64,000 bases of DNA, from contig JAOWCC010000026.1 in the NCBI GenBank assembly GCA_030867875.1, positions 819,001 to 883,000 of the forward strand, given 5' to 3'. The notes beneath the pieces are model-generated. The model did no database searches and was not told the DNA's origin. It was given only the letters and a program-made list of their open reading frames with translations. Below, one piece after another: positions 3,202 through 55,932 of this stretch. A program made the position numbers and the translations under genes. This DNA comes from Actinernus sp. WN-2022. Taxonomy: Eukaryota > Cnidaria > Anthozoa > Actiniaria > Actinernidae. Each line of letters opens with the position of its first letter. Position 1 is the stretch's first letter.

Positions 3202-3566
3202 AGTAGTATGTAAAATGGGGGTTCTGGGCCACCTTGAAATATTTATGCCGGCGGGGGGGGGGCACTTCATTTCATTCACTCACTCGTCCGCTTGAAAATA
3301 TTTGTGCCGGCGGGGGGGTTCACTTCACTTCGTTCCACTCACCCCCCGCCGGCACAAATATTTTCAAGCGGACGAGTGAGTGAATGAAATGAAGTTCCCC
3401 CCCCCCCGCCGGCACAAATATTTCAAGGTTTCCCAGAACCCCCCATTTTACATACTACTTTATACAGTGTTGCCAAAATTGTCACTAGACATTCTTACAC
3501 CTAAAAAATCCAAAGGTGTAAACCTATTAGAGATATGATTCTATACTGTATATCGATCTCTTCCAC
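3202..3566 (+). repeat. Left TIR of Polinton A, with nested terminal palindrome
   Basis: Inverted match to 18591-18953. The outer 258 bp (3202-3459) is itself a palindrome: it begins agtagtatgtaaaatgg and ends ccattttacatactact, with G-tract/C-tract arms around GCCGGC motifs and the block ttttcaagcggacgagtgag. The inner 107 bp is non-palindromic, carries the early promoter-like cassette and ends just before the F-box gene ATG. Confidence 0.93.
3502..3554 (+). promoter_or_regulatory. Early promoter-like cassette (F-box gene, Polinton A)
   Basis: Pattern aaaaaatccaaa, then attagagatatgatt, then tatactgtatat, ending 14 bp before the ATG at 3568. The same arrangement occurs at 4325-4379, in the right TIR (facing polB), and at the matching places in Polinton B. 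Promoter function is inferred from this repetition and position. Confidence 0.65.
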
Positions 3567-3567
3567 T

Positions 3568-4278
3568 ATGGATAATATATCGTACATCCCGATGGAGATC
3601 CTGGTTAAGATCGTAGAACTTGCTGGCCCTAGGTCATTCGCGAGTGTCGCAAGGACGTCGAAACGCCTAAGCGATGCCGCATCTCTAGCGCGCTACAAAA
3701 ACACGGACAAGGAGTTCCGCACGCGAGTACTCACCCTAGGTCTCGAGTCCACCCACGACGACGCCGATCGAGACGGCTTGGTCAAAAAGTTCGGCGTCCC
3801 CAAGGAGGAAGACGGTTCCGGGCCGCTAGTTTACGCTAGTGGACGTGGCAACCTCAATGTAGTTGAGTGGCTCGTTAACCACTTTCAGTTCACCATAGAG
3901 AACGAGGATGTTTATGGTGCGCTAGTCTGTGCCTCTGAGGATGGTCATTTCGATGTCGTTGAGTTGTTCGTTAACCACTTTCGATTCACCGCAGAAGGTG
4001 TAGAAGTTGGATGCTTTCTAGTAGATTCCTCTGCGAATAACCATCAAAATGTAGTTGAGTGGCTCGTTATCCACTTTCAGCTCACCATAGAGAACGATTG
4101 CGTTCATGATGCGCTAGTCCATGCCTCTGAGTATGGTAATCTTGATATAGTTAAGTGGCTCGTTAACCACTTTCAGTTCACCATAGAGAACGATTGTGTT
4201 TTGGGTGCGCTAGTCTATGCCTCTGAGAATCATAATTTTGATGTAGTTAGGTGGCTCGTTAAGCACTTCGAGATCTAG
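3568..4278 (+). CDS. F-box and ankyrin-like repeat protein (Polinton A)
   Basis: 236 aa. Residues 3-45 form an F-box-like segment (YIPMEILVKIV, then SVARTSKRL), followed from about residue 85 by five repeats of about 31-33 residues of the type ALVYAS..G.LNVVEWLVNHF, the ankyrin-like form common in large DNA viruses. F-box plus ankyrin proteins bind SKP1/cullin ligases and recruit targets, so a role in redirecting host ubiquitination is plausible but inferred. The ATG at 3568 is chosen because the B copy starts at the equivalent ATG, directly after the TIR. The upstream in-frame ATG at 3535 lies inside the TIR promoter cassette. It is the leftmost gene and one of the most diverged between A and B. 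Confidence 0.85.
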   Translation: MDNISYIPMEILVKIVELAGPRSFASVARTSKRLSDAASLARYKNTDKEFRTRVLTLGLESTHDDADRDGLVKKFGVPKEEDGSGPLVYASGRGNLNVVEWLVNHFQFTIENEDVYGALVCASEDGHFDVVELFVNHFRFTAEGVEVGCFLVDSSANNHQNVVEWLVIHFQLTIENDCVHDALVHASEYGNLDIVKWLVNHFQFTIENDCVLGALVYASENHNFDVVRWLVKHFEI

Positions 4279-4324
4279 ATAGACCGGTGTATATCCACCA
4301 ATATGTACTCATTCAAGAATTACC

Positions 4325-4379
4325 TAAAAAATCCAAACTCGAGTAACTGTTAGAGGAATGATTATTATACTGTATATCA
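4325..4379 (+). promoter_or_regulatory. Early promoter-like cassette (zinc-ribbon gene, Polinton A)
   Basis: Has aaaaaatccaaa, gttagaggaatgatta and tatactgtatat in the same order and spacing as the TIR cassette, about 90 bp upstream of the ATG at 4469. It appears to be a diverged duplicate of the inner TIR segment. Confidence 0.6.
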
Positions 4380-4468
4380 CCACCAAATGGTATTAGTGTA
4401 TATTCTTTATTCCACGATACTAGCTTACATTGTCATCGTAGTACGCATTAACACCATACAGATCGAAC

Positions 4469-5017
4469 ATGTCGAAGAAGAACGCCGCAATAACTTGTGA
4501 TTGGTTAATGCGAGGGAAGGACTCGAAATGCCCAAAGAGGATTTCGAAGACATCGAAGTTCTGTGCACAGCACAACTGCCAAATATCAAAAGGCTGTGCC
4601 CCATACGTGCCATGCTTGAAGTGCGGTAAAGGATGTCGCACGATTCTCGAGTTTTGCTCAGTATGCGGAGCACCTCAACGTCGTCTCATTATCAATAAGA
4701 AGAACCGCGACATAAAACGCGCTAAGGAGCAGGAGAAACTTGCAGAGCCAAACGTGGAACCGGAGGAAGAGCTGAATGCTGCCGATGTGAGACGCGCTAT
4801 GGAGTTCGACAAGATGCTAGAGGAAGACCTCAGGAACGAGTTGATTAGGACTGCCAACAAGCCGGGGCCCGTCTACGACTCGTATCCAAGAAAGGCTAAA
4901 GCAGAGGAAGAATTGCCCGCGGAACCAAGAGTGGTGGAACCAGAGGAAGGTCTCGGAGAGTCTCTCACCCGTGCGCTCGACGAGGTGTTGGCTGCCTTGA
5001 GGAGCGAGGACGCTTAG
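4469..5017 (+). CDS. Zinc-binding protein with acidic tail (Polinton A)
   Basis: 182 aa. The N-terminal half is rich in Cys/His: C10, C21, C32 and H35 suggest a first zinc site; C49/C52 with C63/C66 form a zinc-ribbon-like pair. The C-terminal half is acidic and Glu/Ala-rich, with a repeated AEPRVVEPEE-type segment, probably coiled or disordered. It lies between the F-box gene and the TFIIB-like gene, so a nucleic-acid or transcription role is likely, but no exact family is recognised. The B copy (32771-33217) keeps the cysteines and has a shorter tail. It is followed by an A/T-rich hairpin at 5025-5088. Confidence 0.85.
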   Translation: MSKKNAAITCDWLMRGKDSKCPKRISKTSKFCAQHNCQISKGCAPYVPCLKCGKGCRTILEFCSVCGAPQRRLIINKKNRDIKRAKEQEKLAEPNVEPEEELNAADVRRAMEFDKMLEEDLRNELIRTANKPGPVYDSYPRKAKAEEELPAEPRVVEPEEGLGESLTRALDEVLAALRSEDA

Positions 5018-5024
5018 GAATAGG

Positions 5025-5088
5025 CAAAAAAAAAAAGGAATGAAAAAAGTTGTTGCGTGACCCTCTTCATTCTTTTTTTCTTTTTTTC
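5025..5088 (+). terminator. Poly-A/poly-T hairpin between zinc-ribbon and TFIIB-like genes
   Basis: An A-run followed by ggaatga pairs with tcattctttttttc around a loop containing gttgcgtgaccctc. The loop is conserved in B (33227-33294). It could end or process transcripts, or act as a recombination or boundary site; the sequence alone does not decide. Confidence 0.5.
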
Positions 5089-5121
5089 TTTCTATTAAAC
5101 GTATAACATCTACAGCGTATC

Positions 5122-6060
5122 ATGGACGAGCTAATCAGATTGTTTGGTCCTGGAATTCGTAGAAGCCTGCATATCAAACCACAATTGCATATTAACGCCA
5201 GTGAAACATGTTCTGATTGTCTCTGCCCCTTGGAAATACAAGGAACGGAATTCGTGTGTCCCACATGTGGTCTAGTTTCCGAGATCGAACCATGTGAAGA
5301 AACGAAGATCGATGTTGCTACTACTCGACTTCGTATAGTAGGTCCGGACGGATTTCAGTTTCAAAGTGATCTAGACCGCGCAAAACCAAAGCAAAGCGAT
5401 AACACGGACCTGCAACGACGAATGCTCCTACGAGAACTACAAGCGTACAACGCTATTTACAAACAAAATTACGACCTATCGTTCCCTATGAACACGTTAG
5501 GAATCGTAGCCGACGCATTTATCCAAGTAATGAAAGTTTGTCTCAAGCGTAGCGACGTTAAGAAAAATATTTTAGCTGCTCTACTCTACCATGCATGCAT
5601 ACAATGTGGGTTCGTCCGATCTAGAGGCGAGGTTGCTCGCTTCATGCAACTAAACAACAAGAGCATCTGTAGCGGAGAGGTCTTTATACGTTCTATGTAT
5701 AACGACGATAAGATTGATGTAGACTTGGATGTCGAGCACATAGTTCCTCACATTGGAACGACTTTCCTTAAACTCGAGCCTCAAGGAGTACCTATAAACG
5801 TTCAACAAATAGTCCACGAGGTTGTTACTACAGCGATAGAAAGCAATATAGGCCCCAGATCGGTAATTAAGACGAAAGTTGTTGGAGCAAGTTACGAGGT
5901 GCTACGTCGTTTAGGATCGTCTATGTCTCTTAACGAGGTCATTGGGCGATGTGACATATTTGGAAATTCAGTCAAGCGTTTTGTCAAGGAGTTGTCTTCT
6001 TACCATTCCCACTTCGAACCAATCTACACTAGACATGGGCTAACTAGCGATAGGACTTAG
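5122..6060 (+). CDS. TFIIB-like transcription initiation factor (Polinton A)
   Basis: 312 aa, about the size of eukaryotic TFIIB. The N-terminal zinc ribbon has C30/C33 and C46/C49 (FVCPTCGLVSE). Two cyclin-like repeats follow: about 140-185 (ILAALLYHACIQCGFVRS) and about 255-300 (VVGASYEVLRRLGSSMS then GNSVKRFVKELSS). TFIIB bridges RNA polymerase II and promoter DNA, so this could direct host polymerase to the element's own promoters; that role is inferred. Giant viruses encode TFIIB-like factors, but they are not part of the usual Polinton set. The ATG follows attaaacgtataac. The gene ends with TAG where the B copy reads through for another 16 residues. It converges on the minus-strand gene at 6112. 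Confidence 0.85.
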   Translation: MDELIRLFGPGIRRSLHIKPQLHINASETCSDCLCPLEIQGTEFVCPTCGLVSEIEPCEETKIDVATTRLRIVGPDGFQFQSDLDRAKPKQSDNTDLQRRMLLRELQAYNAIYKQNYDLSFPMNTLGIVADAFIQVMKVCLKRSDVKKNILAALLYHACIQCGFVRSRGEVARFMQLNNKSICSGEVFIRSMYNDDKIDVDLDVEHIVPHIGTTFLKLEPQGVPINVQQIVHEVVTTAIESNIGPRSVIKTKVVGASYEVLRRLGSSMSLNEVIGRCDIFGNSVKRFVKELSSYHSHFEPIYTRHGLTSDRT

Positions 6061-6111
6061 CGAAGTGAAAGTGAGAACCATGTTCGTTCCTTTCATAGGA
6101 AACGTCGATCC

Positions 6112-6732
6112 TTACCCTACTAAGCTGCCAAGTTGTTCTCGCATTTCCTTTTGCACTTCTTGCTTGAGTTCGGCTCGAACCCGATCCGGACTTTTTTCAC
6201 CTATGGAAGTCTCTCGACGAATTTCAGATCTCATGATCTCATACTTATTCGCTTCGTTCAGGATGAGACTGTATTCAGAGTCGGATATGTTTTCATCGCG
6301 TAGTGCCTTCGATACTAGATCTCGAATCGTATTGATTTTCGCTTTTGCTAACATAGTTGTCCTTTCATGTTTAGAAACCTTCATTCCTAACTTCTTAGCT
6401 CCAAGGGTCGTAGATGCTGAAATTAATCCACATAGCCCACCAATAACTCCAAGTGGTAGACCAATCACTATTCCAACCCCAGTCAACGCTGCGCCCAATC
6501 CAGATCCAGATAAGATCACAGATAGACCTCCAGTTGCCACTGCGATGCCATGAACTATTCCTTGAGAACGTGCATATTTCTTGCGCACACCTTCGTAGTG
6601 CCTTTCTTGAACTTCTATGTCCGAAAGCGTGTCTCGGATCGTTTGCAGTCTAAAGTTCTTTCCAGTGTCACTAGCAATCGGTGGATAGATACTTGGTGCT
6701 GAGGGAAACGGTTGAATCGAGTCGCCTTCCAT
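6112..6732 (-). CDS. Small two-helix membrane protein (Polinton A)
   Basis: 206 aa. Residues 1-55 are soluble with a helical stretch (RLQTIRDTLSDIEVQERHYE). Residues about 58-108 are a Gly/Ala/Ile-rich hydrophobic hairpin (ATGGLSVILSGSGLGAALTG). The C-terminal half is a charged helix (KVSKHERTTMLAKAKINT onward). Very similar in B (203 aa). This type of protein recurs in Polinton-like elements of cnidarians; a virion or assembly membrane role is possible but unproven. It is transcribed away from the penton-like gene's 3' end at 6751 and converges with the TFIIB-like gene. Confidence 0.85.
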   Translation of the reverse strand: MEGDSIQPFPSAPSIYPPIASDTGKNFRLQTIRDTLSDIEVQERHYEGVRKKYARSQGIVHGIAVATGGLSVILSGSGLGAALTGVGIVIGLPLGVIGGLCGLISASTTLGAKKLGMKVSKHERTTMLAKAKINTIRDLVSKALRDENISDSEYSLILNEANKYEIMRSEIRRETSIGEKSPDRVRAELKQEVQKEMREQLGSLVG

Positions 6733-6750
6733 TGTACGTTATACATATAA

Positions 6751-7410
6751 CTACTCAAGCTTCAACACGTATCGTATCGGGCGACCATGAAAGTCTATCA
6801 GATTGCCTTTCTCATCGAGAATTGTCAGACGAAGACTGCTTTGTATCGTACCTAGAGCTTTGACAGGTAGAGGTTGTAGTGAGGCATACGTCGCTTTCGC
6901 AAATCTATCGCCTCGGATGTGTATTCTACTTAGGACTTTAGATTGTTTTCCATCTTGAATCGAGAATCTGGAATCCACCACGTCGCAGCAGATATACGCT
7001 ATGTCGATTTCATCTTGGATGGACACTTCGTGCATACCTACTTTTAGTCGCGTAGCAATCCCATCTTTATTAATACCCATCAGTTTGCAGAGGTTTCCAC
7101 TAAGTAGGATCGATTGCTTGACTTCTAGGTTCCAAGCCCTCCTATGATGGGGTTTCTCGATTTTTATGATGTCAGCACCGACTGCAGGCGCAAAGAATTG
7201 TCGAAGGCTCGCCATAGTGTGGTTTCCCTTAGGAACGTCGTACGGAAACCCTATACCTTCGGTAGACCACCAGAAGGTAGCATTCTCTGCTAGGTTCCAC
7301 CAACTATTCTCAATAGTGACCTCGACTAGTGAAACGTTCTGTATGAGAATAGGGTTGTCGAAGTAGACAGTATGGTCGGCCAACGTTGTGGTGATATATA
7401 AGAGAACCAT
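6751..7410 (-). CDS. Probable minor capsid (penton-like) protein (Polinton A)
   Basis: 219 aa from the ATG at 7410; longer upstream extensions overlap the divergent gene and are absent from B. The N-terminus TTTLADHTVYFDNPI and the C-terminal block SLRLTILDEKGNLIDFHGRP are shared with B, but the middle is only loosely similar, far below the capsid/ATPase identity. Size, beta-rich composition, the C-terminal pattern and the place among virion genes suggest the single-jelly-roll minor capsid protein of Polintons. A structure comparison would decide. It shares a short divergent promoter region with the gene at 7454. Confidence 0.6.
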   Translation of the reverse strand: MVLLYITTTLADHTVYFDNPILIQNVSLVEVTIENSWWNLAENATFWWSTEGIGFPYDVPKGNHTMASLRQFFAPAVGADIIKIEKPHHRRAWNLEVKQSILLSGNLCKLMGINKDGIATRLKVGMHEVSIQDEIDIAYICCDVVDSRFSIQDGKQSKVLSRIHIRGDRFAKATYASLQPLPVKALGTIQSSLRLTILDEKGNLIDFHGRPIRYVLKLE

Positions 7411-7453
7411 CTTATATGTTGAAGGTATAACTATATATACGTATAGCTTCAAC
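7411..7453. promoter_or_regulatory. Divergent late-like promoter (penton-like / large protein, Polinton A)
   Basis: The 43 bp between the two start codons contains tgttgaaggtataactat and tatatacgtatagcttcaac: a TATA-rich centre with TTGAA/TTCAA flanks in inverted orientation. The same sequence is conserved in B at 35618-35658. The symmetry fits one site serving both strands. Confidence 0.7.
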
Positions 7454-9277
7454 ATGACAGACGCATGGCGGCAGTTCAAGTACCTATTTCCTAATGCCGT
7501 ACTTGGTTGGTTCGAATCTACTTCCGATAATGTTAATTTCATCGATCGGGGAATGTCTCATCGCGTGTTCACGGAGGAAGGTCTTCCTACTAAGACGGGA
7601 GGTGGTAAATTGATGGGGTGGCTCGGTCGCACTGGTAAGGCTCTCGACACAGCACTTGGTGGTAAGTCAGCTTACGAGAGCGTACTATTCGCGCGGGAAC
7701 ACGAAGGTCTTTCCAAGCACGATTGGATAGAAGAAAACGATAAGATCGCAACGTTGAATGCAGATCTATTAGCGAAGTTCGAGAAACGATACCCACATAC
7801 GGATCTTCACAAGTTCTATGCCTCTACGGAAGTGAACGGTCCAGGCAAATATTCGACGAGTATTTGGTTTCGAGATGGAGATTCTAGCTATGTCGTTTAC
7901 GGCGATGATGTCTCAAAGTTATCTGCAGTCACTCAAAGACGCATCGATGACGCATTGCAGGGAATGGTTGATGGTTTCCCATCTACGTTGACACTAGATA
8001 AGAGTGTGAAATATCCTATTCGAGCAGTTCCTTTTACCGAACAGGCACAAGATGTAGATCTCACCAAGTTATGGATATACGTCACACCTACGAAGAAGTT
8101 CGAAGCAGGCGTTCCAAATATATTCAAGGAGATCGTTGTAAAGCATACGACAGCAAAGGAGTCTCGTAGATGGTTATCAGGTCCGGATTTCAAATACTGG
8201 CCTCAACAACTTAATTTTGCAACGTGGTGTGCAACTTCTGGATGCGGAGTGTCATTGTTTGACCCCACTTTCAAAACATATCCACCAGTTGTCCAAGGGT
8301 TCCTACGATTCCACGTATATTTCACGATACGAAGAATTCTACATGAACTTGGAGCTCCTCTACCTGGTAACCGTGCTTTCAAGCAACTCGATAATCTCTA
8401 TAGCAAATCAGTCCTTGAGAAATTGTGCATCGAATTCGGCATATCTCGAACGCCAGACTTTCGGTGGGATGGCTTAGGAGACGTCTACGTAAACTCTCAT
8501 GGAAGAATGGTGAACTATACGGAGAAGTACGCACATAATACTTCGTACTCTGCGAAGTGGCCTGGCGGTGACTTCAAGTTTCCTGAGGAGAGTCGTACGG
8601 ACTATCACTTTCCTTTATCGTACATTAGCAATGACAACGGTAAACAGTACAATTGGTTTACGCCACCAATCGGTAGAGGTTTGACGAATGCTGGATTGGG
8701 TAGATTGAATCGATCTGTCGAAGCTTTTGGATATTGTATTCTAGGCGCTCAAAACGATCTTAACGAATCCATCGTAGATAGTTTCAACGTCAAAGAAAAG
8801 TTTAAGAGCTTAGTCGAAGGCGCTATTCTCGAAAACGATTTAAGGGTGAGCTACAAAAACTATCTTAATGCTATAACGACGACGCATAAGAGGCTCTATC
8901 TAGCAATAGCTATAGGCGTGCGATTATTGCCAAGCAATCTAGTGTACTATCTTGGTAAGGAAGATGGCTATAGGAATCCAATCCCGAAAGCCACGAAAGA
9001 TATGATGCTAGGCACTAACGACATCAATGCAGAAGTCAAAGGACGCCCACCTCCTCCTATGGAAGGACCACCAGATAAGAAATTGGTGCCGCCTATCGAG
9101 ACGCACGAGAAACTAGTTCCTGTACTAAAGGCTGTCCCACCAGATAAGAAATTGGTGCCGCCTCTCGAGACGCACGAGAAACGAGTTCCTGTACCAAAGG
9201 CTGTCCCACAACATGAGATTAATCTCGCGGTGACATCTATTGCCGCAGCTGGAATTGCATGGACGTTGTTTCGTTAA
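7454..9277 (+). CDS. Large conserved Polinton protein, function unknown (Polinton A)
   Basis: 607 aa from the ATG at 7454, directly after the divergent promoter. The N-terminal ~90 residues (GGGKLMGWLGRTGKALDTAL) are unlike B. From about residue 95 (ATLNADLLAKF) the two copies align closely. Conserved landmarks: TSIWFRDGDSSYVVYG, NFATWCATSGCGVSLFDP, FLRFHVYFTIRRIL and YNWFTPPIG. Near the C-terminus are two PPDKKLVPP...ETHEK repeats, then a hydrophobic tail (LAVTSIAAAGIAWTLF) that may anchor in a membrane. It stands among the virion genes and resembles a protein common in cnidarian Polintons, so a structural role is likely but not shown. Its stop overlaps the end of the gene at 9274. Confidence 0.85.
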   Translation: MTDAWRQFKYLFPNAVLGWFESTSDNVNFIDRGMSHRVFTEEGLPTKTGGGKLMGWLGRTGKALDTALGGKSAYESVLFAREHEGLSKHDWIEENDKIATLNADLLAKFEKRYPHTDLHKFYASTEVNGPGKYSTSIWFRDGDSSYVVYGDDVSKLSAVTQRRIDDALQGMVDGFPSTLTLDKSVKYPIRAVPFTEQAQDVDLTKLWIYVTPTKKFEAGVPNIFKEIVVKHTTAKESRRWLSGPDFKYWPQQLNFATWCATSGCGVSLFDPTFKTYPPVVQGFLRFHVYFTIRRILHELGAPLPGNRAFKQLDNLYSKSVLEKLCIEFGISRTPDFRWDGLGDVYVNSHGRMVNYTEKYAHNTSYSAKWPGGDFKFPEESRTDYHFPLSYISNDNGKQYNWFTPPIGRGLTNAGLGRLNRSVEAFGYCILGAQNDLNESIVDSFNVKEKFKSLVEGAILENDLRVSYKNYLNAITTTHKRLYLAIAIGVRLLPSNLVYYLGKEDGYRNPIPKATKDMMLGTNDINAEVKGRPPPPMEGPPDKKLVPPIETHEKLVPVLKAVPPDKKLVPPLETHEKRVPVPKAVPQHEINLAVTSIAAAGIAWTLFR

Positions 9278-10350
9278 CGTCGTTTATATTGCTCTATAGT
9301 GATCACCACTATTGCTACGATGAATAACCAAACGTTCTCAGCTAGTACTCCCAGAGCTTTACCAGCCATAGTAAATATGAAACTCACAATCGATCCAATA
9401 ATTCCAGGTAGGATCTGTCCAAGTTTCTTTCCCATTTCTTTCAACAAACCCCCAGTCGTTTTTAATCCCTTCTTTACTGCATCTGCTGCTTTATCGATAC
9501 CAGCCTTTACTGGTTTCGGTACGGATCTCGACAACAGGGAAACTATCGTACTAACGATAGCGCCAATAGAAGTTACCACTGCAAGAACGGTCATTCCATG
9601 CTTTCTGAAAATGTATTTAATCCTTTCACGTAGCGATGTACGTTCTAGTATGGCTTCTTCTTGACGTTCAAGGAATTCTCTTGCCCTATGGATGGACATT
9701 AACTCCTTCTTAGCTACTTCTTTCTGAGCGTCGGTCGATTCAGAGTCCCCCAGAATAGATTCATTATTTGCTTCCCGTTCGGCGAGTTGTTGTTCTGCAA
9801 ATATTCTTTCATCGGCGGCTTCTTCAGTAGTTGGACCTAAGGCAGCTTTGAGAGAGCTTCGAAACCTAGTGTGTAATTTCTTATCTTTATCATCACCGGT
9901 GAATAGACGTATAAGTGGTCCTTTGCTGCCAAGTTCGCGAACTTTGATTTGTTCGTCTATTAAGTAGATTTCGATATTATGTCGAACACCCGCATCCGGA
10001 TATTGGCCCTTTACTATATCAACCAGCATTTCCTTTGCCGAATCTTGAAAGGTTTGTTCGAATGTGAATCCTCGAAACGGGTCATCGCCTTCTAGGACGT
10101 AGTTGTGAATATCGCTCATGGGAATCATTTCACTACCACCAGCTTCATCTTGACTATCATCTAATATACTAGCTAAGTATCTTCGTTGGTCTTCTTCTTC
10201 ATCTTGCTGTCGTCGGTCTTCTTCATCTTGCTGTCGTCGGTTTTCTTCTCGTCGTTGTCGATCATCTTCATTTCGTTGTCGATCATCTTCATTTCGTTGT
10301 CTATCAGCTGCATCCTTGCGACCTGCATCGCCATCAATCTTAAAGTCCAT
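9274..10350 (-). CDS. Charged coiled protein with C-terminal membrane segments (Polinton A)
   Basis: 358 aa from the ATG at 10350. An ATG further upstream would overlap the capsid gene promoter. The N-terminus holds tandem acidic/arginine repeats of the DRQRNED type (about residues 13-55), absent from B. The middle is soluble; about 245-266 is hydrophobic (VLAVVTSIGAIVSTIVSLL); about 270-310 is amphipathic with GLLKEMGKKLGQILPG; about 315-352 is hydrophobic. The C-terminal 130 residues are almost the same in B. A virion membrane-active or assembly role is plausible by position; no named family is recognised. Confidence 0.83.
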   Translation of the reverse strand: MDFKIDGDAGRKDAADRQRNEDDRQRNEDDRQRREENRRQQDEEDRRQQDEEEDQRRYLASILDDSQDEAGGSEMIPMSDIHNYVLEGDDPFRGFTFEQTFQDSAKEMLVDIVKGQYPDAGVRHNIEIYLIDEQIKVRELGSKGPLIRLFTGDDKDKKLHTRFRSSLKAALGPTTEEAADERIFAEQQLAEREANNESILGDSESTDAQKEVAKKELMSIHRAREFLERQEEAILERTSLRERIKYIFRKHGMTVLAVVTSIGAIVSTIVSLLSRSVPKPVKAGIDKAADAVKKGLKTTGGLLKEMGKKLGQILPGIIGSIVSFIFTMAGKALGVLAENVWLFIVAIVVITIEQYKRR

Positions 10351-10384
10351 GTTAAACATAACTATATATATAGTTATATTCAAC
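10351..10384. promoter_or_regulatory. Palindromic bidirectional promoter (membrane protein / capsid, Polinton A)
   Basis: The 34 bp between two divergent ATGs reads gttaaacataactatatata followed by its near complement ending ttatattcaac. It is symmetrical around a TATA core, and each ATG is equally spaced from the centre. Conserved at 38430-38463 in B with one changed base in the left arm. Confidence 0.75.
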
Positions 10385-11620
10385 ATGATCTCATCAAAGT
10401 TGGATCCCACACAAGCACGAAGAGAGCCTCATGCACTCAAGGCTCCGCGAGACTTGTATAGGAAAACTTTCACTCGATCATCTGCCAATCCAGGTGAGAC
10501 TCTATACGTAGAAGTCCCAAATCTAGCAGAAGGTGTAGTACTAGTACCTGGTAGCTTAGCGCTATTGGTCGACATCGTACTATCTGGTGGACATGCGAAT
10601 AACAGAGTCGTTTCGAACATTGGACGCTGCTTGGTCATACGTAGAATCTGTAGGATGGCAGCTGAAACAGTAGAAGACCTTGTCAGGCCAGACCTCCTAC
10701 AAACGTACTCCGATGTATACCTATCTACGCAGGAGATAGAGTCTAGAGTACAACAAGGCATTCAATCAGAGAACGTAAACAAGCTACGATCGAAAGCTGG
10801 TGACGCAAGTACTTCGTCTGCTGCAGACAACGCGCTCCTAGCTGCATGTGGTTCCAAGTATAGGATTCCATTAGATGTTGACATTCTGACACAACATGGA
10901 GTTCTATATCCATATGCCTTAGAAAATGCAATTACATTCGAGTTGACTCTAGCGCCTGCCAACGAGGTCGTAATTGGATCGGATACGACGAAGATAGGTA
11001 CGTACCAACTTACCAACATCCAACTAGAATACGAAGCAATCAGGGACGGAACGCTGGCTAGTAGTGCATTTCACAAATACGAAATAGGTACTGCATTCCT
11101 ATACAACTATGCCGTTCACTTCAAGACAGTAGATATCGCTAAAACGTCCGATACTTTGATATCTCAAAACGTTAATGTTCCACGACGATCCTTTGCTGGA
11201 CTACTTCTACTATTCATAGATCCACCTACCATTGGCACGCGAGATAGTGAAGCATTCTCGAATCCAGATATCTTGAAGGTAGAAGTAGATGTCAACGGGA
11301 TTCCCAACAGACTCTTTCCAAGCGGCATGCTTCCCCTAGATTTCTGGGAGGCTGCAAAGGGCTGGTTTGGTACACCCAATACTTCCATGACTCCAAAGAA
11401 GTTCTTTGAAAATAGATTCGCTATCCTAATCGATTGTCGCACAGCAAAAGATTCCACCGTTCATGGTGATGGCTTGACACAAACCGGCAGTGGGAAGGAC
11501 ATCGACATTCGCATACATAGAACTGCGAAGGGAAGTGGAAATGTGAAAATGCACATCTACGTCCTTGCGGATGCTCAGGTCATGATATTGAACAGATCTT
11601 TACATAGTATAGTATACTGA
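10385..11620 (+). CDS. Major capsid protein candidate, double jelly-roll type (Polinton A)
   Basis: 411 aa from the ATG at 10385, just after the symmetrical promoter. Beta-rich throughout, with landmarks YRIPLDVDILTQHG, TYQLTNIQLEYEAI, DTLISQNVNVPRRSF, LLLLFIDPP and NRLFPSGMLPLDFW. These resemble the hexon-like capsid proteins of cnidarian Polinton/adintovirus elements, and the gene immediately precedes the packaging ATPase, the usual order. About 28 residue differences from B by eye. The TGA overlaps the ATPase ATG (TGATG-type overlap). A structure prediction showing two jelly rolls would confirm it. Confidence 0.72.
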   Translation: MISSKLDPTQARREPHALKAPRDLYRKTFTRSSANPGETLYVEVPNLAEGVVLVPGSLALLVDIVLSGGHANNRVVSNIGRCLVIRRICRMAAETVEDLVRPDLLQTYSDVYLSTQEIESRVQQGIQSENVNKLRSKAGDASTSSAADNALLAACGSKYRIPLDVDILTQHGVLYPYALENAITFELTLAPANEVVIGSDTTKIGTYQLTNIQLEYEAIRDGTLASSAFHKYEIGTAFLYNYAVHFKTVDIAKTSDTLISQNVNVPRRSFAGLLLLFIDPPTIGTRDSEAFSNPDILKVEVDVNGIPNRLFPSGMLPLDFWEAAKGWFGTPNTSMTPKKFFENRFAILIDCRTAKDSTVHGDGLTQTGSGKDIDIRIHRTAKGSGNVKMHIYVLADAQVMILNRSLHSIVY

Positions 11621-12240
11621 TGGATTCTCTCGTAGAGCACGTACCGTTCAACGCACTCATAGTCGGTCCAACGAATTGTGGGAAGACTGCGTTCCTCATA
11701 GAACAACTTCGTGGATCATTTCGTGGTAAGTTCGATTACATAGTACTGATTTGTCCTACGTATGCCCACAACAAAACTTATCGCGGATTTGCAAATCGAG
11801 ATCCTCGTTTCTTCGTCATGTCACCACCGCAGGATGCCATCGATACTACTTTGAGTATTTGCGCAACATTTTGGTCAGGTACCAATACTCTATTGATTCT
11901 CGACGATTGCGCCGCATCGAAGGACGTCAAGAAACGAACTGAAAAGCTAGTGGACTTAGCCTTTTCTGCACGACATATAGGGCTTTCCGTTTGGGTGCTG
12001 TCCCAACAACTAACGAGCATATGTAAACCCTTTCGCGAGAACGTAGCTATCGTAGTAGCATTTCATACAGCATCGGCCGTAGATGGCAAAAGGATATTTG
12101 AGGATTATGGAGGCTCGCAAGAATGTAAAGAGTTACGAACGATACTTGGATCCCATAAGTTCGCTCGCATGTGCTTCTGTCTCCGCCATCCTTTCGAGGT
12201 AGTGTTAGAGCTCCCAGCACCTACAACATATTATGACTGA
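11620..12240 (+). CDS. DNA-packaging ATPase, FtsK/HerA (A32-like) family (Polinton A)
   Basis: 206 aa. Walker A is GPTNCGKT at residues 16-23; Walker B is LLILDD at 91-96; a sensor-like VLSQQ follows near 128. Size and motifs fit the genome-packaging ATPases of Polintons, virophages and NCLDV (A32). It would drive DNA into the capsid. The ATG overlaps the capsid gene stop and its own end overlaps the next gene by 8 bp, so this is a compact virion cluster. Only about eight differences from B. Confidence 0.93.
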   Translation: MDSLVEHVPFNALIVGPTNCGKTAFLIEQLRGSFRGKFDYIVLICPTYAHNKTYRGFANRDPRFFVMSPPQDAIDTTLSICATFWSGTNTLLILDDCAASKDVKKRTEKLVDLAFSARHIGLSVWVLSQQLTSICKPFRENVAIVVAFHTASAVDGKRIFEDYGGSQECKELRTILGSHKFARMCFCLRHPFEVVLELPAPTTYYD

Positions 12241-12772
12241 TAAGGAAATACTCGAGATATTCGGTGAGGACCCACCACCAACCGACCTAGACGTTACGTC
12301 AGACAATCGCGAATCACTTTCGATCTTAGCCGCAACAGGCGTAACGAAAGAATACTTAGGTAAGAACTTTTCCCTAGGAGACATCTCTAGACTTCCTGAG
12401 AAAGAAGTAGACAAGTTGTATAGGAGGTATCAGGCCGTTCTAGCTCAGCAAGTAACGAAAGGCTTAGTCGACGGTGTGACGCGTCTAGCTACCCGCCTAG
12501 TTGCCTACCTAGTACCAATAGATTCTCAAGAAGCCCTGATCAAGGACATACAAGAAGACCCTCTAGTCCGCAACGAAATAAGTGCTGCGACTGGCCTACT
12601 ATCGCTTAAGGCAGGTCGCCTTGTAGCTCTAGCTAGCGTCCTATTCCACATATCTGGCCACGTAGTCATTCCTGGTACAACTGTTGAACCTTCACATATA
12701 CCTACTATATCGAATCAAGATGGAAGAAGCGGACCAGATAACTGCGAATCCTCCGACGACTGTACCAACTAA
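12233..12772 (+). CDS. Conserved small Polinton protein, unknown function (Polinton A)
   Basis: 179 aa. Soluble N-terminus (EILEIFGEDPPPTDLDV), helical middle (LYRRYQAVLAQQVTKGLVDG), and a hydrophobic stretch at about 128-150 (SLKAGRLVALASVLFHISG), then a polar tail. The ATG lies inside the ATPase end. B has 182 aa with a three-residue insertion (VTG) near residue 12. The pattern recurs in cnidarian Polintons. Role unknown; virion-cluster context. Confidence 0.85.
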   Translation: MTDKEILEIFGEDPPPTDLDVTSDNRESLSILAATGVTKEYLGKNFSLGDISRLPEKEVDKLYRRYQAVLAQQVTKGLVDGVTRLATRLVAYLVPIDSQEALIKDIQEDPLVRNEISAATGLLSLKAGRLVALASVLFHISGHVVIPGTTVEPSHIPTISNQDGRSGPDNCESSDDCTN

Positions 12773-13070
12773 GGTAAAAAATCCAAAGCGTGTTGCAGCA
12801 GGAAAATTAGCTTGGGAGAAGGCCACTGCCAATGCAAAAGAAGCTCAAAGGATGGAGATAGAACGTGAAAATGAACCGTCCAAAGAAACTGACGTAGAGA
12901 AAGGTCAGTTCGAAAACCTGGCTATCCTCACAATCATCGGTACTGGCGCTACATTGCTTTGCACGTACTTTGCGTACAAGAAGTATGTAGATGGAAACGA
13001 GTGTGTTGCCGCCGTTAGCACGACGCGATCTGCAGCTCCGGTAAAGTTTACGGCACTAGACATGGAGTAA
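12720..13070 (+). CDS. Single-pass membrane protein (Polinton A)
   Basis: 116 aa from the ATG at 12720, overlapping the previous gene by 53 bp in another frame. Basic N-terminus, charged helix, one transmembrane segment at about 66-86 (LAILTIIGTGATLL), short polar tail. The start matches B (40808). No family recognised; context suggests a minor virion or assembly component. Confidence 0.78.
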   Translation: MEEADQITANPPTTVPTKVKNPKRVAAGKLAWEKATANAKEAQRMEIERENEPSKETDVEKGQFENLAILTIIGTGATLLCTYFAYKKYVDGNECVAAVSTTRSAAPVKFTALDME

Positions 13071-13107
13071 CTCTTAGAGACTAGAGACCATACTTATATA
13101 TGTCGAG

Positions 13108-13317
13108 ATGGATAAAGAATTGATGAAGACGGCAACCGATGCATCTATAATTGTTGGACTCGCTTCTGGTATTGGGTGGATCGTAAAGAAGACTACCAAG
13201 GAATCTATGCTTAGCGATCCTTCTTCTTCCCTAGTGAATTACGCAAAGTGGACTGCCGTGATACTTGGAAGCTTATACGCGAAACAATATCTTGAGAAAC
13301 AAAAGATCATACCATAA
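13108..13317 (+). CDS. Very small membrane protein (Polinton A)
   Basis: 69 aa, almost unchanged in B despite its length, which supports it as a real gene. Hydrophobic stretches at about 11-28 (ASIIVGLASGIGWIV) and 46-60 (AKWTAVILGSLYA). Preceded by cttatatatgtcgag. Its TAA overlaps the next ATG (TAATG). Confidence 0.8.
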   Translation: MDKELMKTATDASIIVGLASGIGWIVKKTTKESMLSDPSSSLVNYAKWTAVILGSLYAKQYLEKQKIIP

Positions 13318-13742
13318 TGGCAGCAGCAATTGCTATGACAGTTTTCGGCGCTATTTTGAATGCGATGGCATTTACTGGTGGTGGCATACTAGCTAGAATG
13401 ATTGGAAAGGGTGATGTAGATACAGAACGAGAGAGACACGATAGGGCCATCGAAAGACAAGAATCTGAAATGACAGAGTATAGAATCGAACGTCAACGAT
13501 TATACGACTTTGCACAAAATCAGGAAGGTCTTGAACGCGACGCATACAACGTTCAAAGAGATACCAACAAAGCCTTCGTGCAATCCGATAAGTTACGTAA
13601 GGCGCTAGAACGGCTCGAAGAAATGAAAGAACCCCGCTTATCTGACTACTACCGACCCTCGAACGATCAGAAGACTGGTGAGTTGCTCTATGTCGGTGGT
13701 GGAATGCTAGGCGCTGGATACGCTATTAGTAGATGGTTATAG
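13317..13742 (+). CDS. Small coiled-coil protein with two hydrophobic ends (Polinton A)
   Basis: 141 aa. Hydrophobic N-terminus (MTVFGAILNAMAFTGGGI), a long charged coiled coil at about 35-105 (RERHDRAIERQESEM onward), the block EPRLSDYYRPSNDQKTGE, and a hydrophobic C-terminus (LLYVGGGMLGAGYAI). This arrangement recurs in cnidarian Polintons. Last gene of the virion cluster, followed by the tandem-repeat spacer. Confidence 0.83.
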   Translation: MAAAIAMTVFGAILNAMAFTGGGILARMIGKGDVDTERERHDRAIERQESEMTEYRIERQRLYDFAQNQEGLERDAYNVQRDTNKAFVQSDKLRKALERLEEMKEPRLSDYYRPSNDQKTGELLYVGGGMLGAGYAISRWL

Positions 13743-13955
13743 AAACGTACTAGGTACTACTAAGCTACTAAGCTACTACTAGCTACTACTAAGCTACTAC
13801 TAGCTACTACTAAGCTACTACTAAATTACTACTAAGCTACTACTAAGTTACTACTAAATTACTACTAAGCTACTACTAAGCTACTACTAAGTTACTACTA
13901 AGCTACTACTAAGCTACTACTAAGTTACTACTAGCTACTACTAGCTACTACTAAA
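13743..13955 (+). repeat. CTACTAAG-type tandem repeat spacer (Polinton A)
   Basis: About 200 bp of imperfect repeats of ctactaagcta / ctactactaag, between the virion cluster and the integrase hairpin. B has a spacer in the same place built from a related but different unit (aagctactagtaagttaccc). No coding content. Confidence 0.9.
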
Positions 13956-14012: not shown

Positions 14013-14026
14013 TGTTGAAGTTTAGA

Positions 14027-41155: not shown

Positions 41156-41192
41156 CACTTAAAGACTCGAGACCATACTTATATATGTCGAG

Positions 41193-42191: not shown

Positions 42192-42209
42192 CATCTGTTG
42201 AAGGTTAGA

Positions 42210-46200: not shown

Positions 46201-46885
46201 AAGTTCTGGGAACGTCTTGTGTGGGTGCTGTCAGGCGATAGAAGTTCTGGGCAAGTTTTCGAGCTTTGACGCAACACCTATCTACTCTTGCTCCTTCATG
46301 CATGGCAAGGCAGCGCCAAAGACATAGGTTGTCGCCATATCGATCAAGGGCAAGCATTCCTTTCTTAAGGCGAAGCCATTGGGGCAGTGGACCTGTTCCC
46401 AACAAAAGCTGACGATCGATCACGACTTTGACATCTACGTAGATCCAACGAACGAAGGCCCATTGGGTATTTGGTCGAGTGATGTTGTCGGGATTCAATC
46501 GAGCTGTCTCCTTGCTATTGATCCACTCTTCTGCATCTTCTAGGATGTTCACCCATGGAGAGCCTGGGACAGTCTTGGAGAATAGAATCACGCGTCCGTC
46601 ATTGACATTGCGAATGCGATAGGTGTAGCTATAGCGTAGGTAGAAGCTGGTGGTTACCTTTGCAACTAACTTTTCCATGATCCTAGGAGTCAAGTCTCCT
46701 GCCACACCTTGGAAGAAGCGCCATCGGATAGTACGGCGACCTATCTCCATCCCCTCGAGCATTCCATCTCTCTCCTCTAGAATAGCACCTGCCTCTCGAG
46801 CTAGACTCCGTGGAAGTGGTTCACTACGGGGTCTCACCATTCTCCCTTCGATATAACTATGTGTTAGGATAGCTTTAACAGGCAC
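43250..46885 (-). pseudogene. Protein-primed DNA polymerase B, second lineage, one in-frame stop (Polinton B)
   Basis: About 1,211 codons from the ATG at 46885. Zinc-finger-like C292/C295...H306; a Cys/His block FHGCYFHGCPKC (393-404) with a following AGYTVVEAW, suggestive of a restriction-fold endonuclease module; exonuclease motifs YDFEAY (458-463) and FNSGRYDLNL (563-572); then a TAA at 45026-45028 (codon 620). The same frame is open beyond it: motif A YDANALYL at about 797, motif B KLLGNSAYGK at about 965, motif C QMDTDS at about 1063. A single stop thus separates exonuclease from polymerase. It has no HNH module and does not align with the polymerase of A beyond general family motifs. 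Confidence 0.92.
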
Positions 46886-46919
46886 TCGAATTTGGATTTT
46901 ATGTGTAAGGCCGTTGCAG

Positions 46920-47051
46920 CGATATAATTATATGTAATTATATCTCTAATAGGATTATCAAGTTGGATTTTATGTACAAGCAATCGATGTCGATATAACT
47001 ATATGTAATTATATCTCTAATAGGATTATCAAGTTGGATTTTACGTACAAG
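46920..47051 (-). promoter_or_regulatory. Tandemly doubled early promoter-like cassette facing polB (Polinton B)
   Basis: Two copies of about 61 bp (46920-46980 and 46991-47051) each carry cgatataa.tatatgtaatta, tatctctaataggattatca and agttggatttta. Only the outer copy belongs to the TIR; the inner one is an extra duplication just upstream of the polB ATG at 46885. Confidence 0.65.
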
Positions 47052-47324
47052 AATGTCTAGTGACACTTTGAATGACCCTTAGTTACCCCATAGTAGTATA
47101 GTCGGCGTCAGTTAAATACAACTTTTTCTTGTACAACAAAACTCAAAAGGTTGTGAATGTTATGGACGCCTTTTTTCTTGCACAAGGGGCGTTATGAAGT
47201 GGATTTCTGAATTCACTTTATGACGCCCCTTGTGCAAGAAAACAAGGCGTCCATAACATTCACAACCTTTTGAGTTTTGTTGTACAAGAAAAAGTGGTAT
47301 TTAACTGACGCCGACTATACTACT
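46991..47324 (-). repeat. Right TIR of Polinton B, with nested terminal palindrome
   Basis: Inverted match to 31571-31903; the outer palindrome is 47092-47324 (233 bp, same length as on the left). The two ends differ by a few substitutions only. Confidence 0.93.
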
Positions 47325-48122
47325 GTCGGACTAGCCACTTCACCCATTTACTAGAAATAGAATACACGTTCCAAAAATGTAGGTTTGTTTGATATTGGTG
47401 TTACCATAGTAACACAGCGTTGACGTCATGTATGTATTTTACATATCATCAATTTTCTCGAAATCTAGACCTCAATTTTTAAAACGACCTAGTGTGTCCT
47501 GTAGTTTCAATTTAGGCCTTCAAGACTGCAAAGTTTAAAAAAATTGTATGAGAGCGTTTTCGAAAAAAATTGGGTTGAATATTTTCATTCAAAAAATAAA
47601 CAATTCGCCTTACTTCCTGTTTAGTAGTCGAGAACTGTGTTTTCCGGATAGATTCAAGCGATGTTATTAGCATATTTCATACCTGTGGCATAGGACTACT
47701 TCCCATGAAAATGTCATTCCATTTGCTTTATTCGATTTCGGTTTATGGAATCATAAGTAATGTCATAAATATGCTCATTTTATTCAAAATAGTAACGTAT
47801 TTGCTAAGGAAGCTGTAATTAGAAAACTAGTCGATAAATATTTTGTTTAATCCTTTCACCTGAAATTCAACATGTACCCTGGCCCTGTAAATTTCAAGAG
47901 CATTGAATCATTTTAAGGGCGCGAAATAAAAACAAAACAAAGGGAACTTTTACATTCTTCTACGCAAGCTTCATTGCTGTATCATTTTGTTTATAGCTTG
48001 CGTCTTTCTGAAATTTCTCTTTTGTCTAGATTCTACATACTTGTGTGCTTTTGAACTAACAAGTTTACCATGCACGCTTTGCTACTGCCGGAACGCTCCT
48101 GCAAATTCTGTTCTTAGTACAA

Positions 48123-52399: not shown

Positions 52400-52930
52400 C
52401 TGGAGCATTGAATGAAAATGACAGTAAAGAAATGCTAAAAAAAGTCGTTAAAAATAATCTCCGTTGCAGCATTGAATGAAAACTACAATAAAGTACTTAA
52501 ACATTTCGAAAAAGACGGTGTTTGCAGTAATGGGCTTATTTTAACGGTTTACAACGGTTCACCTCTATTTGTGACGTCAGAATGACGACATAACTTGCTT
52601 TGATTGCTAAACCAATAGCATCATTGGAAAGAGCAGCCAAACTAGGTTCAACATTTCATGATTTGCCACGGGTATTAATTAAAAGCAGAAAATGAGAACG
52701 GTTCACCCCTTTTAACGACTTTGAAAAAATGTACTTCATTATACTTTTAAAGATCATAAAAAGGTTGAACCGCTGTAATTTTCAGCATTTTTGCTTAAAA
52801 CATGGTAATATAAACATGTTTTGGTTGCTCTTTCCAGTGATGCAATTGGGTTGGCAATCAGAGCTAGTTATGACGTCATTGTGACGTCAAAAAATAGGGG
52901 TAAACCGTTGGGCGAACTAATTGGTGACTT
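52400..52930. repeat. Foldback repeat, copy 1
   Basis: Block aaaccaatagcatcattgga with flanking tgacgtca motifs near 52565-52645 is matched inverted near 52830-52900, making this a foldback. A related inverted copy lies at 56265-56580. No coding content. Confidence 0.65.
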
Positions 52931-52960
52931 TTGAGATATCAAAATAGTTGTTTAAATGAT

Positions 52961-53191
52961 GGAATACCTTGCCTCTTGAATTAAGAACACTTGCCTCTGT
53001 AAAGAGTTTCAAAAAGGCTATTGTGAGTTCATGGAATAAGTATTAAGGCACCTTTATTTACATACTTATTTTTAATTTTTACTAGCACACACATATATAT
53101 ATATATATATTACATTTTATCATATTACATTTCATTATAATTTTGTACTCCTATTTTTACTTATATATATGTTTGTGTGTATATATATATA
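52961..53191 (+). pseudogene. LINE ORF2 tail and 3' UTR, part 1
   Basis: A 28-codon frame ending at 53045 (LPLELRTLASVKSFKKAI, then WNKY stop) has the usual C-terminal pattern of LINE ORF2. An AT-rich 3' UTR with a TA microsatellite follows and is cut at 53191 by the foldback; it resumes at 55933. Confidence 0.6.
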
Positions 53192-55932
53192 AGTAGTATA
53201 GGGCGCATGGAATTAAGCCCCTTTTTTGCGGTGTTATGCTAATTTTTAAGGCACTCATGAATAAAGTGGTGAGCTCATGAATAAAGTGGGGTGGTTTCTC
53301 ATTATCTATTGTCTTTCCGCATGAAGAAAGTGCCGCGAGCTCATGAATAAAGTGCTGCGCTCATGAATAAAATGGAATCTCATTAAATGAAGTGGTTTCT
53401 CATTATCTATTGTTCCTTTGGATGAGGTCATCGATCTATTCGGGCATGTTTGGGCAAAGCCTATTGTTTGGGATCGTCTGTAAAACCAGGAGCCGTCGAC
53501 CCTGAATACATTCAAGAAATTGAGTAGCAACAAGATGGAAGTCATCTAAAATCCATTCGAAGTTGAATGAAAAAAGTAAAACATATCTTGCAATATCTAA
53601 ACCCCTTCGTAGCGTAAATAGTAAGAACAAACTACTCGTGATAGGCTCTAAACTGTCTTTATTATTTTCCTTTACAGTTAATAACTCATAAGATAATTGT
53701 ATACAAAATCCGGTATGGTTCATTAGATCAACTCTGCTGTTGTTTTTAGGGATTAGCGATAACTGAAGGGCCTATTGTTTTGAGGACAATTCTTGTGATG
53801 CAAATTCTTCTCTAAAACTGAACTATAATTACCATACGAATATAAACAAACCACCAGATAATTAAACAAAGTTTATTCAATCTCAAAAACACCAATTTTA
53901 AAAACAGTTCGTTTTTCCTTATCCTCGCGGAGTTGATAACTTTCTTATTTCTCAGTTCTTGGGTTGATATAATATACCATGTTACAAGATTACACTGATT
54001 TATGTTTCATTGATTTTTTTTCTTGTTGACAAATGCTACAAACAGTTGTGTTTTTACCGAGGAGAGGAAAATTAATGACCTAGGTAGTCTGGTCTAGTCT
54101 AAAAACTCTACTTTAGCAATCATTTTCTAATCTAGTCTAGAAATTGTATTATTTTTCTAGTCTAGTCGTTCTAAACTACAAAGTATCTAGTCTAGAAACT
54201 AACAACACTCACATCACCCGATGCCCACAAGCCCTGAACGCCCGCCGCCCGTCAACGGGCGTCAACGCCCGTCAACGTCCGTCAACGCCCGCCGCCCGTC
54301 AGCGGGCGTCAACGTCCGTCAACGCCCGCCTTCTCCTTCTTCGTCCTCCTCCCTCCTCCTCCTCCTCCTCCCTCCTCCCTCCTCCCTCCTCCTCCTCCTC
54401 CTCCTCCTCCTCCTTCTCCCTCTTCCTTCTCCTCCTCCCTCCTCCCTCTTCCTCTCCTCCTCCCTCCTCCTCCCTCATCGCTACCCCAAAGCTGATGTTA
54501 CAAATGTTACAGAAAATATCTGGACAACCGAAAGTATAGCATAAGGAAGCTTTGGGGTAGCGATGAGGGGAGGAGGGAGGAGGGAGGAGGGAGGAGGGAG
54601 CAGGGAGCAGGGAGGAGGGAGGAGGGAGGAGGGAGGAGGGAGGAGGGAGGAGGAGGAGGATGAGGGAGGAGGAGGAAGAAGGAAGAGGCGGGCGTTGACG
54701 GACGTTGACGCCCGCTGACGGGCGGCGGGCGTTGACGGACGTTGACGGGCGTTGACGCCCGTTGACGGGCGGCGGGCGTTTCAGGGCTTGTGGGCATCGG
54801 GTGTTGTGAGTGTTGTTAGTTTCTAGACTAGATACTTTGTAGTCTAGATATTTTGTAGTCTAGAACGACTAGACTAGAAAAGAATACAATTTCTAGACTA
54901 GATTAGAAAATGATAGCTAAATTAGAGTTTTCAGACTAGACTACCTAGATTAACAATTTCTAGACTAGACTATAAAATGATAGCTAAAGTAGAGTTTTTA
55001 GACTAGACCAGACTACCTAGGTCATTAATGTTCCTCTCCTTGGTAAAAATACAACTGTCTGTAGCATTTCTCAACAAGAAAAAAAAATCAATGAAAACAT
55101 AAATCAATGTAATCTTGTAACATGGTATATTATATTAACCCAAGAACTGAGAAATAAGAAAGTTATCAACTCCGCGAGGATAAGGAAAACGAACTGTTTT
55201 TAAAATTGTTGTTTTTGAGATTGAATAAACTTTGTTTAATTATCTGGTGGTTTGTTTATATTCGTATGGTAATTATAGTTCAGTTTTAGAGAAGAATTTG
55301 CTTCACAAGGAGTTTTCCTCAAAACAATATATAGGCCCTTCAGTTATCGCTAATCCCTAAAAACAACAGCAGAGTTGATCTAATGAACCATACCGGATTT
55401 TGTATACAATTATCTTATGAGTTATTAACTGTGAAGGAAAATAATAAAGACAGTTTAGAGCCTATCACGAGTAGTTTGTTCTTACTATTCACGCTACGAA
55501 GGGGTTTAGATTTTGCGAGATATGTTTTAATTTTTTTATTCAACTTCGAATGGATTTTAGATGACTTCCATCTTGTTGCTACTCAATTTCTTGAATGTAT
55601 TCAGGGTCGACGGCTCCTGGTTTTACAGACGATCCCAAACAATAGGCTTTGCCCAAATATGCCCGAATAGATCGATGACCTCATCCAAAGGAATAATAGA
55701 TAATGAGAAACCACTTCATTTAATGAGATTCCATTTTATTCATGAGCGCACCACTTTATCCATGAGCGCGCCGCACTTTTTTCATGCGGAAAGACAATAG
55801 ATAATGAGAAACCACCGCACTTTATTCATGAGCTCACCACTTTATTCATGAGCGCCTTAAATTTAGCATAACACCGCAAAAATTAACATAACAGCGCAAA
55901 AAGGGGCTTAATTCCATGCGCCCTATACTACT
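53192..55932. mobile_element. 2.74-kb foldback with Polinton-like termini
   Basis: Begins agtagtatagggcgcatgga and ends with the complement, ...ccctatactact. The arms run to about 54510 and from about 54545, so nearly the whole element is inverted repeat. Each arm holds the same 95-codon frame (53436-53723 -, 55383-55670 +), polypyrimidine tct/cct tracts and repeats of gtcaacgcccgtcaacg type. The end motif is that of both Polintons. Flanks are TA-rich, so the duplication (tata) is not decisive. No transposase, integrase or polymerase. Confidence 0.85.

Follow-up and report, generated by a model that had tools for sequence, protein, structure and literature searches.

What are long palindromes doing at the tips of virus-like transposons? 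The question is raised by a 64,000-nucleotide stretch of the genome of the sea anemone Actinernus sp. WN-2022 (contig JAOWCC010000026.1, positions 819,001 to 883,000; hereafter the window), which carries two Polintons, A and B, and a gene-free foldback, F (Table 1). Judged from their sequence, A and B are virus-like giant transposons with long terminal DNA hairpins. Their terminal palindromes are probably hairpin replication ends, each matched to the polymerase of its own element. A role in replication was among the ideas put forward in an initial annotation of this DNA, and it is the best supported of them: the two arms evolve as pairs, palindrome type is linked to polymerase type, and inverted termini occur.

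The ends of both Polintons are complete palindromes, with small gaps, that begin at base 1 of the element and run inward. Aligned with gaps to their own complements, the left and right palindromes of A are 234/267 and 232/265 identical, and those of B 210/235 and 222/235. Folding as single-stranded DNA, computed for the left termini, placed A 29 and B 25 standard deviations below dinucleotide shuffles, and none of 200 shuffles of either terminus folded as well. All five copies of AGTAGTAT on the + strand of the window (3202, 18699, 31571, 47092 and 53192) are the start of a terminal palindrome or of F, and ATACTACT closes these five palindromic units at 3452, 18946, 31796, 47317 and 55925; further copies of ATACTACT at 11843 and 41837 lie away from element ends. 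Note that a palindrome starting with AGTAGTAT necessarily carries the complement at its inner edge, which is therefore not independent evidence of a second mobile end. The 8-bp tip is the only sequence that the left palindromes of A and B have in common (best local score 16, against a mean of 17.6 for 50 shuffles). The initial annotation had described two unrelated sets of complete palindromes (258/255 bp in A, 233/233 bp in B) that share this tip; we confirm each of these points, and the palindrome coordinates are exact to the base. Both Polintons are flanked by exact 5-bp duplications, CACTG in A and GTCGG in B. For B the duplication length is certain, because the foldback that hosts it keeps an unbroken GTCGG in its opposite arm.

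DNA similarity between A and B covers most of the two elements and is missing from the outer palindromes and the polymerase region. On the left it begins 16 bp (A) and 21 bp (B) inward of the palindrome edge, from where the inner terminal inverted repeats (TIRs) are ~80% identical; it stops at 15071 (A) and 43246 (B), between the integrase and polymerase genes. Among the encoded proteins, the integrase, the packaging ATPase and three others are 93-97% identical between A and B and five others 46-80%, with the polymerases at 25%. Across the host genome (1.39 Gb searched), palindrome and adjacent polymerase were of matching type in all 29 elements that could be typed from the stretches examined (A 11/11, B 18/18, window included). 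The 11 typed elements with an A-type palindrome, all distinct, have the N terminus of an A-type polymerase inside the terminus (91-100% identical where read), and the 17 typed B-palindrome elements outside the window have the N-terminal open reading frame (ORF) of the B-type polymerase (96-97%).

A tree built from polymerase pieces puts A and B into two clades, both fully supported in a bootstrap that had not settled, and in the integrase tree they are sisters (98/86); relatives of the B integrase number 3723. The polymerases have named relatives in a sea slug, a sea anemone, a coral, a ribbon worm, snakes and one bacterial metagenome-assembled genome (MAG). L001:1-5112 is a Polinton fragment with an integrase and an A-type polymerase on a contig that is probably a contaminant of the bacterial MAG in which it is filed. 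It is the informative extra row of the polymerase tree, where it groups with A, because the other rows (18 per clade) were chosen by similarity to A or B. Its integrase is 61% identical to that of B and its polymerase pieces are 40-65% identical to that of A; polymerase and integrase have therefore parted company. The contig stops short of any TIR. Searches of IMG/VR with the integrase, the polymerase and the tip pattern found no close relatives, and two distant polymerase relatives (40%) had no AGTAGT-type terminal palindrome in the end stretches inspected, on contigs that may be incomplete.

The comparison of A and B bears on the suggestion that the palindromes are recognition structures for the integrase with no part in replication. 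AGTAGT stands on both palindrome edges, the tip is a known Maverick end (excerpted text of PMC8097293), and A and B combine near-identical integrases with the same tip. However, integrases that are 93-97% identical accompany wholly different palindromes, so the palindrome beyond the tip is not read by that integrase, and the inner AGTAGT is a consequence of palindromicity. We regard this suggestion as distinctly unlikely.

Palindromic ends of both types recur in the host genome. First-look searches with the A palindrome, the B palindrome and F gave 88, 1244 and 2759 candidates, and 40 of each were scored. The best 40 of the 88 for the A palindrome yielded 18 further end pairs and two single ends. 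Every one of the 18 pairs is flanked by a 5-bp duplication, and its palindromes are 125-194 bp long and begin at base 1 or 2; together the pairs represent 15 distinct insertions, flanks being common within one group of two and one of three. Both single ends have the palindrome first and then the inner TIR. For the B palindrome, 30 of the 30 loci cut out join the inner TIR directly (one of them is the left B end of the window), and seven of eight testable pairs have a 5-bp duplication; the eighth, in a TTA repeat, reads 8. Other Polintons with such ends, which the initial annotation proposed looking for, thus exist among both types. Three shorter A-type elements (7-8.5 kb; G000:C813:24582005-24589250, C685:65745621-65754112 and C235:8842678-8849913) have palindromes at both ends and common flanks, and are probably one insertion within duplicated sequence.

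Do the palindromes also occur alone? We searched for exact matches to 31 bases of the B palindrome's inner arm and followed the first 100 of 195. Eighty-four of them form 42 inverted pairs spaced 14.4-15.4 kb. Twelve of the other 16 join the inner TIR (11 were read and one is L088) and four are outer edges, three within palindromes already counted and the fourth (C635:88768138) read and found to join the inner TIR. All 97 B-type palindromes behind these matches therefore sit at Polinton ends, 84 by spacing and orientation and 13 by junction reading. The stand-alone copies with 5-bp duplications that the initial annotation had envisaged were thus absent from these 97, as they were from the A-type matches listed.

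Stand-alone foldbacks with the Polinton tip do exist, in the form of F, which on sequence grounds is a member of a separate, abundant and dispersed family. The initial annotation had grouped A, B and F by their AGTAGTAT ends. The shared tip stands, but F cannot have a 5-bp duplication, because its flanks are a TA run phased for even lengths only; its duplication is probably the 6-bp TATATA. F has only the tip in common with A, and 10 bp with B. A search with the first 400 bp of F (best 40 of 2759 candidates) gave six guessed pairs and four single ends in which to read the tips. The tip was caught in two of these pairs and in every single end, always as AGTAGTAT, and both of those pairs have 6-bp duplications (GAGGAA and TACATA); the other four guessed pairs missed the tip. 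The joined flanks of F, used as a query, found no second copy of its target. F may have been moved by a different Polinton-type integrase that makes 6-bp duplications.

These results weigh on the view that the palindromes are mobile foldbacks, similar to miniature inverted-repeat transposable elements (MITEs), that were captured as Polinton ends or are moved alone by the Polinton integrase. The common AGTAGTAT tip and the dispersed F-family foldbacks would fit it, as would the fact that the A and B palindromes are unrelated beside homologous inner TIRs, from which it follows that outer ends have been replaced as units. Against it, all 97 B-type and the listed A-type palindromes sit at Polinton ends, the F relatives have 6-bp duplications (2/2), and F shares so little with A and B. 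Movement of short foldbacks by the Polinton integrase, one proposal of the initial annotation, finds no example among these palindromes, and the 6-bp duplications of stand-alone AGTAGTAT foldbacks, as opposed to 5 bp in A and B, count against the A/B integrase on that proposal's own terms. For the other proposal, foldbacks gained as ends, no donor was found, and every A- and B-type end that we examined has the palindrome. Capture, or movement of the palindromes alone, seems quite improbable.

The favored reading, that the palindromes act as hairpins, is consistent with how their arms evolve. We aligned 16 A-type termini, leaving out L059 (194 bp), window A (258 bp), right ends and repeated insertions. 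Across the 48 pairs of the stem, 93.1% of cells pair, compared with 35-46% in slid controls. Changes on both sides of a pair affect 12 of the 48 pairs and 46 cells (slid controls, 1-2 pairs and 1-5 cells), and none of 500 shuffles reached the paired fraction, the pair count or the cell count. The clearest cases are columns 14/142 (eight A-T, eight G-C) and 18/138 (eight C-G, eight G-C), neither with any breaks. By eye, L059 and window A have extra repeats in both arms. Stem variants are common to both ends of an element and to several insertions, and were therefore fixed before insertion.

The B family is far more uniform, 24 of the 29 loci outside the window being identical. Five loci differ by one change, and in three of them the change restores a mismatched pair. 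At the right B end of the window, five pairs are restored, one A-T has become C-G, one pair is broken and one unpaired site has changed. Three inverted termini largely have this better-paired state as well, which is therefore a common variant and not a private event. The bases that pair at 42/192 and at 59/175 vary from copy to copy; not every paired state can therefore be ancestral.

Inverted termini, in which the loop is turned round, account for 4 of the 97 B-type palindromes (L136, L137, L138 and L139). Compared with the commonest B copy, they show 5, 8, 3 and 9 differences when reversed and 18, 17, 20 and 16 when not. They also pair better (222/235, 224/235, 218/235 and 224/233, compared with 212/235 for the family copy). 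The opposite end is in the usual arrangement for three of the four, and that of the fourth is absent from the listed matches. The other 29 cut-out B loci have the usual orientation. Among A-type termini none of 38 is inverted (32 with repeated insertions counted once), and the same arm is always outside. In parvoviruses, both orientations of a terminal palindrome are about equally frequent, and inversion, a product of hairpin transfer, is their hallmark. No such near-equality was found here, in either B (4/97) or A (0/38).

Arms could also come to match, and ends to invert, merely by chromosomal recombination or copying between arms, in which case the palindromes would do nothing for the element. 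Long palindromes are able to form cruciforms that are then repaired, which would supply a route, and single termini that are both inverted and better paired do exist. Yet the A-type stem variants, common to both ends and to several insertions, were fixed before insertion, and palindrome type follows polymerase type. We therefore consider this explanation unlikely.

Several observations weigh against hairpin ends matched to a polymerase. The linkage is strong as linkage but weak as a number of independent events, because the B copies are nearly identical and stem from a recent expansion. A further seven A-palindrome and four B-palindrome elements were untypable in the stretches examined, the B type was read from the N-terminal ORF only, and the polymerase is the extreme rather than the sole difference between A and B, given the five further proteins at 46-80%. 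The 48-pair A-type stem was written from the alignment itself, and its rows are related to each other. The count of 'further pair types' is ordinary (266 of 500 shuffles reach it), pair 27/128 is open in 7 of the 16 termini and pair 31/124 in 9, and A-type ends retain a CC/TT mismatch in one orientation. The commonest B copy has seven mismatches in 108 pairs (identity 212/235), and two of the five single-site variants break a pair, or three of six with the left end of the window. For the three restorations, the estimate of 2% chance per change (p ~8e-5) overstates the case and the p value is not one of independent events, because the restored states 159T, 42G and 59A recur in other termini and may have spread or be ancestral instead of new. 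Finally, inversion favors a hairpin but can also originate from chromosomal recombination between arms or from misassembly.

How might hairpin ends work? Palindrome and adjacent polymerase gene would form a unit in which each palindrome type has its own PolB lineage to copy or initiate it, and the polymerase or its terminal protein may recognize the palindrome. The hairpin would form on linear replicating or displaced single-stranded DNA, where inversion and arm matching would also take place, and annealing of complementary TIRs would keep left and right ends alike. The shared integrase, which makes 5-bp duplications, would use the outermost AGTAGT as a Maverick-type end. For the chemistry of the end, self-priming, recognition by the polymerase or terminal protein, and a protected telomere are all candidates. 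To our knowledge, the copying of Polinton ends has been inferred and not measured.

We tentatively extend this to exchangeable telomere-polymerase cassettes, in which polB and the terminal hairpin are swapped together onto an integrase-capsid chassis, arms are kept matched and one end is occasionally inverted. This extension is possible rather than probable. If true, it would be a way of replicating ends that combines a Polinton-type polymerase with terminal hairpin transfer and stands between adenovirus-like and parvovirus-like replication. For Polintons, thought to lie near the root of many eukaryotic DNA viruses, a terminal hairpin that co-evolves and follows the polymerase lineage is a concrete, testable cis-element, and the tie suggests a route by which one integrase-capsid background could switch replication systems. 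It also separates recognition by the integrase (the AGTAGT tip) from recognition in replication (the hairpin).

A and B resemble Polintons/Mavericks in their length of 15.8 kb, rve integrase, PF03175 polymerase, A32-type ATPase, long TIRs and AGTAGT ends. They differ in that the terminal 125-258 bp of A- and B-type elements are complete, co-evolving hairpins. In the excerpted text of PMC8097293, vertebrate Mavericks most commonly end in (AGT)2//(ACT)2 and intact ones have 6-bp target duplications; the duplications of the two F relatives are of this kind, and the 5-bp duplications of A and B are not. For Polinton-like viruses, the part of PMC12220804 available to us states duplications of 5-6 bp. 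Bidnaviruses took PolB and TIRs from a polintovirus, which sets a precedent for a polymerase and its terminal repeats travelling together as a module, although their repeats, as the accessible portion of PMC4061559 describes them, are without parvovirus-type hairpins, and those of A and B fold back. Adintoviruses mix Alpha and Beta hexon and PolB, the polymerase clade being exchanged against the capsid clade, with no link to terminal structure stated in the extract of PMC11071296. The titles and abstract openings that our searches of open-licence PMC papers brought up contained no description of a Polinton terminus as a conserved hairpin that follows the polymerase.

Parvoviruses offer structural parallels in fold-back palindromic ends, inverted termini and two ends of one element that can differ. 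Unlike parvoviruses, A- and B-type elements rarely show inversion, and they have their own polymerase gene. The telomeres of Streptomyces linear replicons combine palindrome-rich ends, made of several small palindromes, with protein priming. Palindromes and protein priming are thus compatible, although A and B have a single terminal hairpin; the likeness does not imply a relation. F resembles foldback and MITE families in being abundant, gene-free and marked by shared tips, but has the Polinton tip AGTAGTAT and 6-bp duplications (two relatives), and the A and B palindromes examined do not stand alone as such families do.

Table 1. Elements, termini and genes in the window, with the basis of each assignment.
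Feature	Coordinates	Strand	Basis or remark
Polinton A	3202..18953	+	Ends, duplication, genes
Target-site duplication CACTG, left of A	3197..3201	.	Sequence
Left terminal palindrome of A, 258 bp	3202..3459	.	Self-complement alignment, folding
Inner TIR of A, left	3460..3566	+	~80% identical to B inner TIR from 3476 on
A32-type packaging ATPase of A	11620..12240	+	PF04665 4.4e-11; 96% identical to B
Integrase of A, two overlapping frames (13976-14494, 14443-15090)	13976..15090	+	Pieces 93-97% identical to B
DNA polymerase B of A (A-type)	15272..18520	-	PF03175 3.3e-17; tree
Inner TIR of A, right	18591..18698	-	Sequence comparison
Right terminal palindrome of A, 255 bp	18699..18953	.	Self-complement alignment
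Target-site duplication CACTG, right of A	18954..18958	.	Sequence
Polinton B, within foldback F2	31571..47324	+	Ends, duplication, genes
Target-site duplication GTCGG, left of B	31566..31570	.	Sequence and unbroken target copy
Left terminal palindrome of B, 233 bp	31571..31803	.	Self-complement alignment, folding
Inner TIR of B, left	31804..31904	+	Sequence comparison
Packaging ATPase of B	39699..40319	+	96% identical to A
Integrase (rve) of B, 351 aa	42198..43253	+	PF00665 1.8e-10
DNA polymerase B of B, C-terminal ORF (B-type)	43250..44947	-	PF03175 8.9e-10; 25% identical to A
Putative N-terminal part of B-type polymerase	45026..46885	-	Upstream ORF on same strand; 96-97% identical copies beside B-type palindromes
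Inner TIR of B, right	46990..47091	-	Sequence comparison
Right terminal palindrome of B, 233 bp	47092..47324	.	Pairs better than commonest family copy
Target-site duplication GTCGG, right of B	47325..47329	.	Sequence and unbroken target copy
Foldback F, 2741 bp, AGTAGTAT ends, gene-free	53192..55932	.	87% self-complement identity; family member
TATATA, left copy of probable 6-bp duplication of F	53186..53191	.	Sequence
TATATA, right copy of probable 6-bp duplication of F	55933..55938	.	Sequence

Both Polintons also encode an ankyrin protein with an F-box-like start and a weakly TFIIB-like protein. Their capsid-candidate ORFs gave no significant match in Pfam, which was the sole search made (no fold search), and no polymerase domain was found in the ORF at 45026..46885. 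Extra copies of inner-TIR motifs lie within the elements at 4322-4378, 32600-32679 and 46920-46971; the inner TIR may promote transcription of the ankyrin and polymerase genes. Right upstream of the integrase gene lie tandem arrays with many CTACTACTA / CTACTAGTA units (13758-13955 in A, 41828-42144 in B), and that of A looks like the AGTAGT end motif reiterated many times. A greater conservation of outer than of inner arms was not upheld by the family comparison. The dispersed motif AGTAGTATTTATAGTAGTAT was rejected, since it belongs to an unrelated repeat; at position 1501 of L007-L010 it lies inside a dispersed host repeat of at least 500-1300 bp.

Polinton A lies directly downstream of one copy of a 98% repeat (2936-3144, 25739-25947), probably the long terminal repeat of a BEL/Pao element with gag-like and pol ORFs (19589-24791), as judged from the sequence; A apparently broke this retroelement in its leader region. 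A 68-nt perfect inverted repeat with a 21-nt spacer (29324-29480) has no link to any element of the window. The foldback that hosts B is 2 kb long, has TTAAGG...CCTTAA ends and is recovered by joining 31489-31570 to 47330-49292. F is likewise nested in another element (52164-56738), whose arms (52567-52654, 56249-56336) are 88% complementary.

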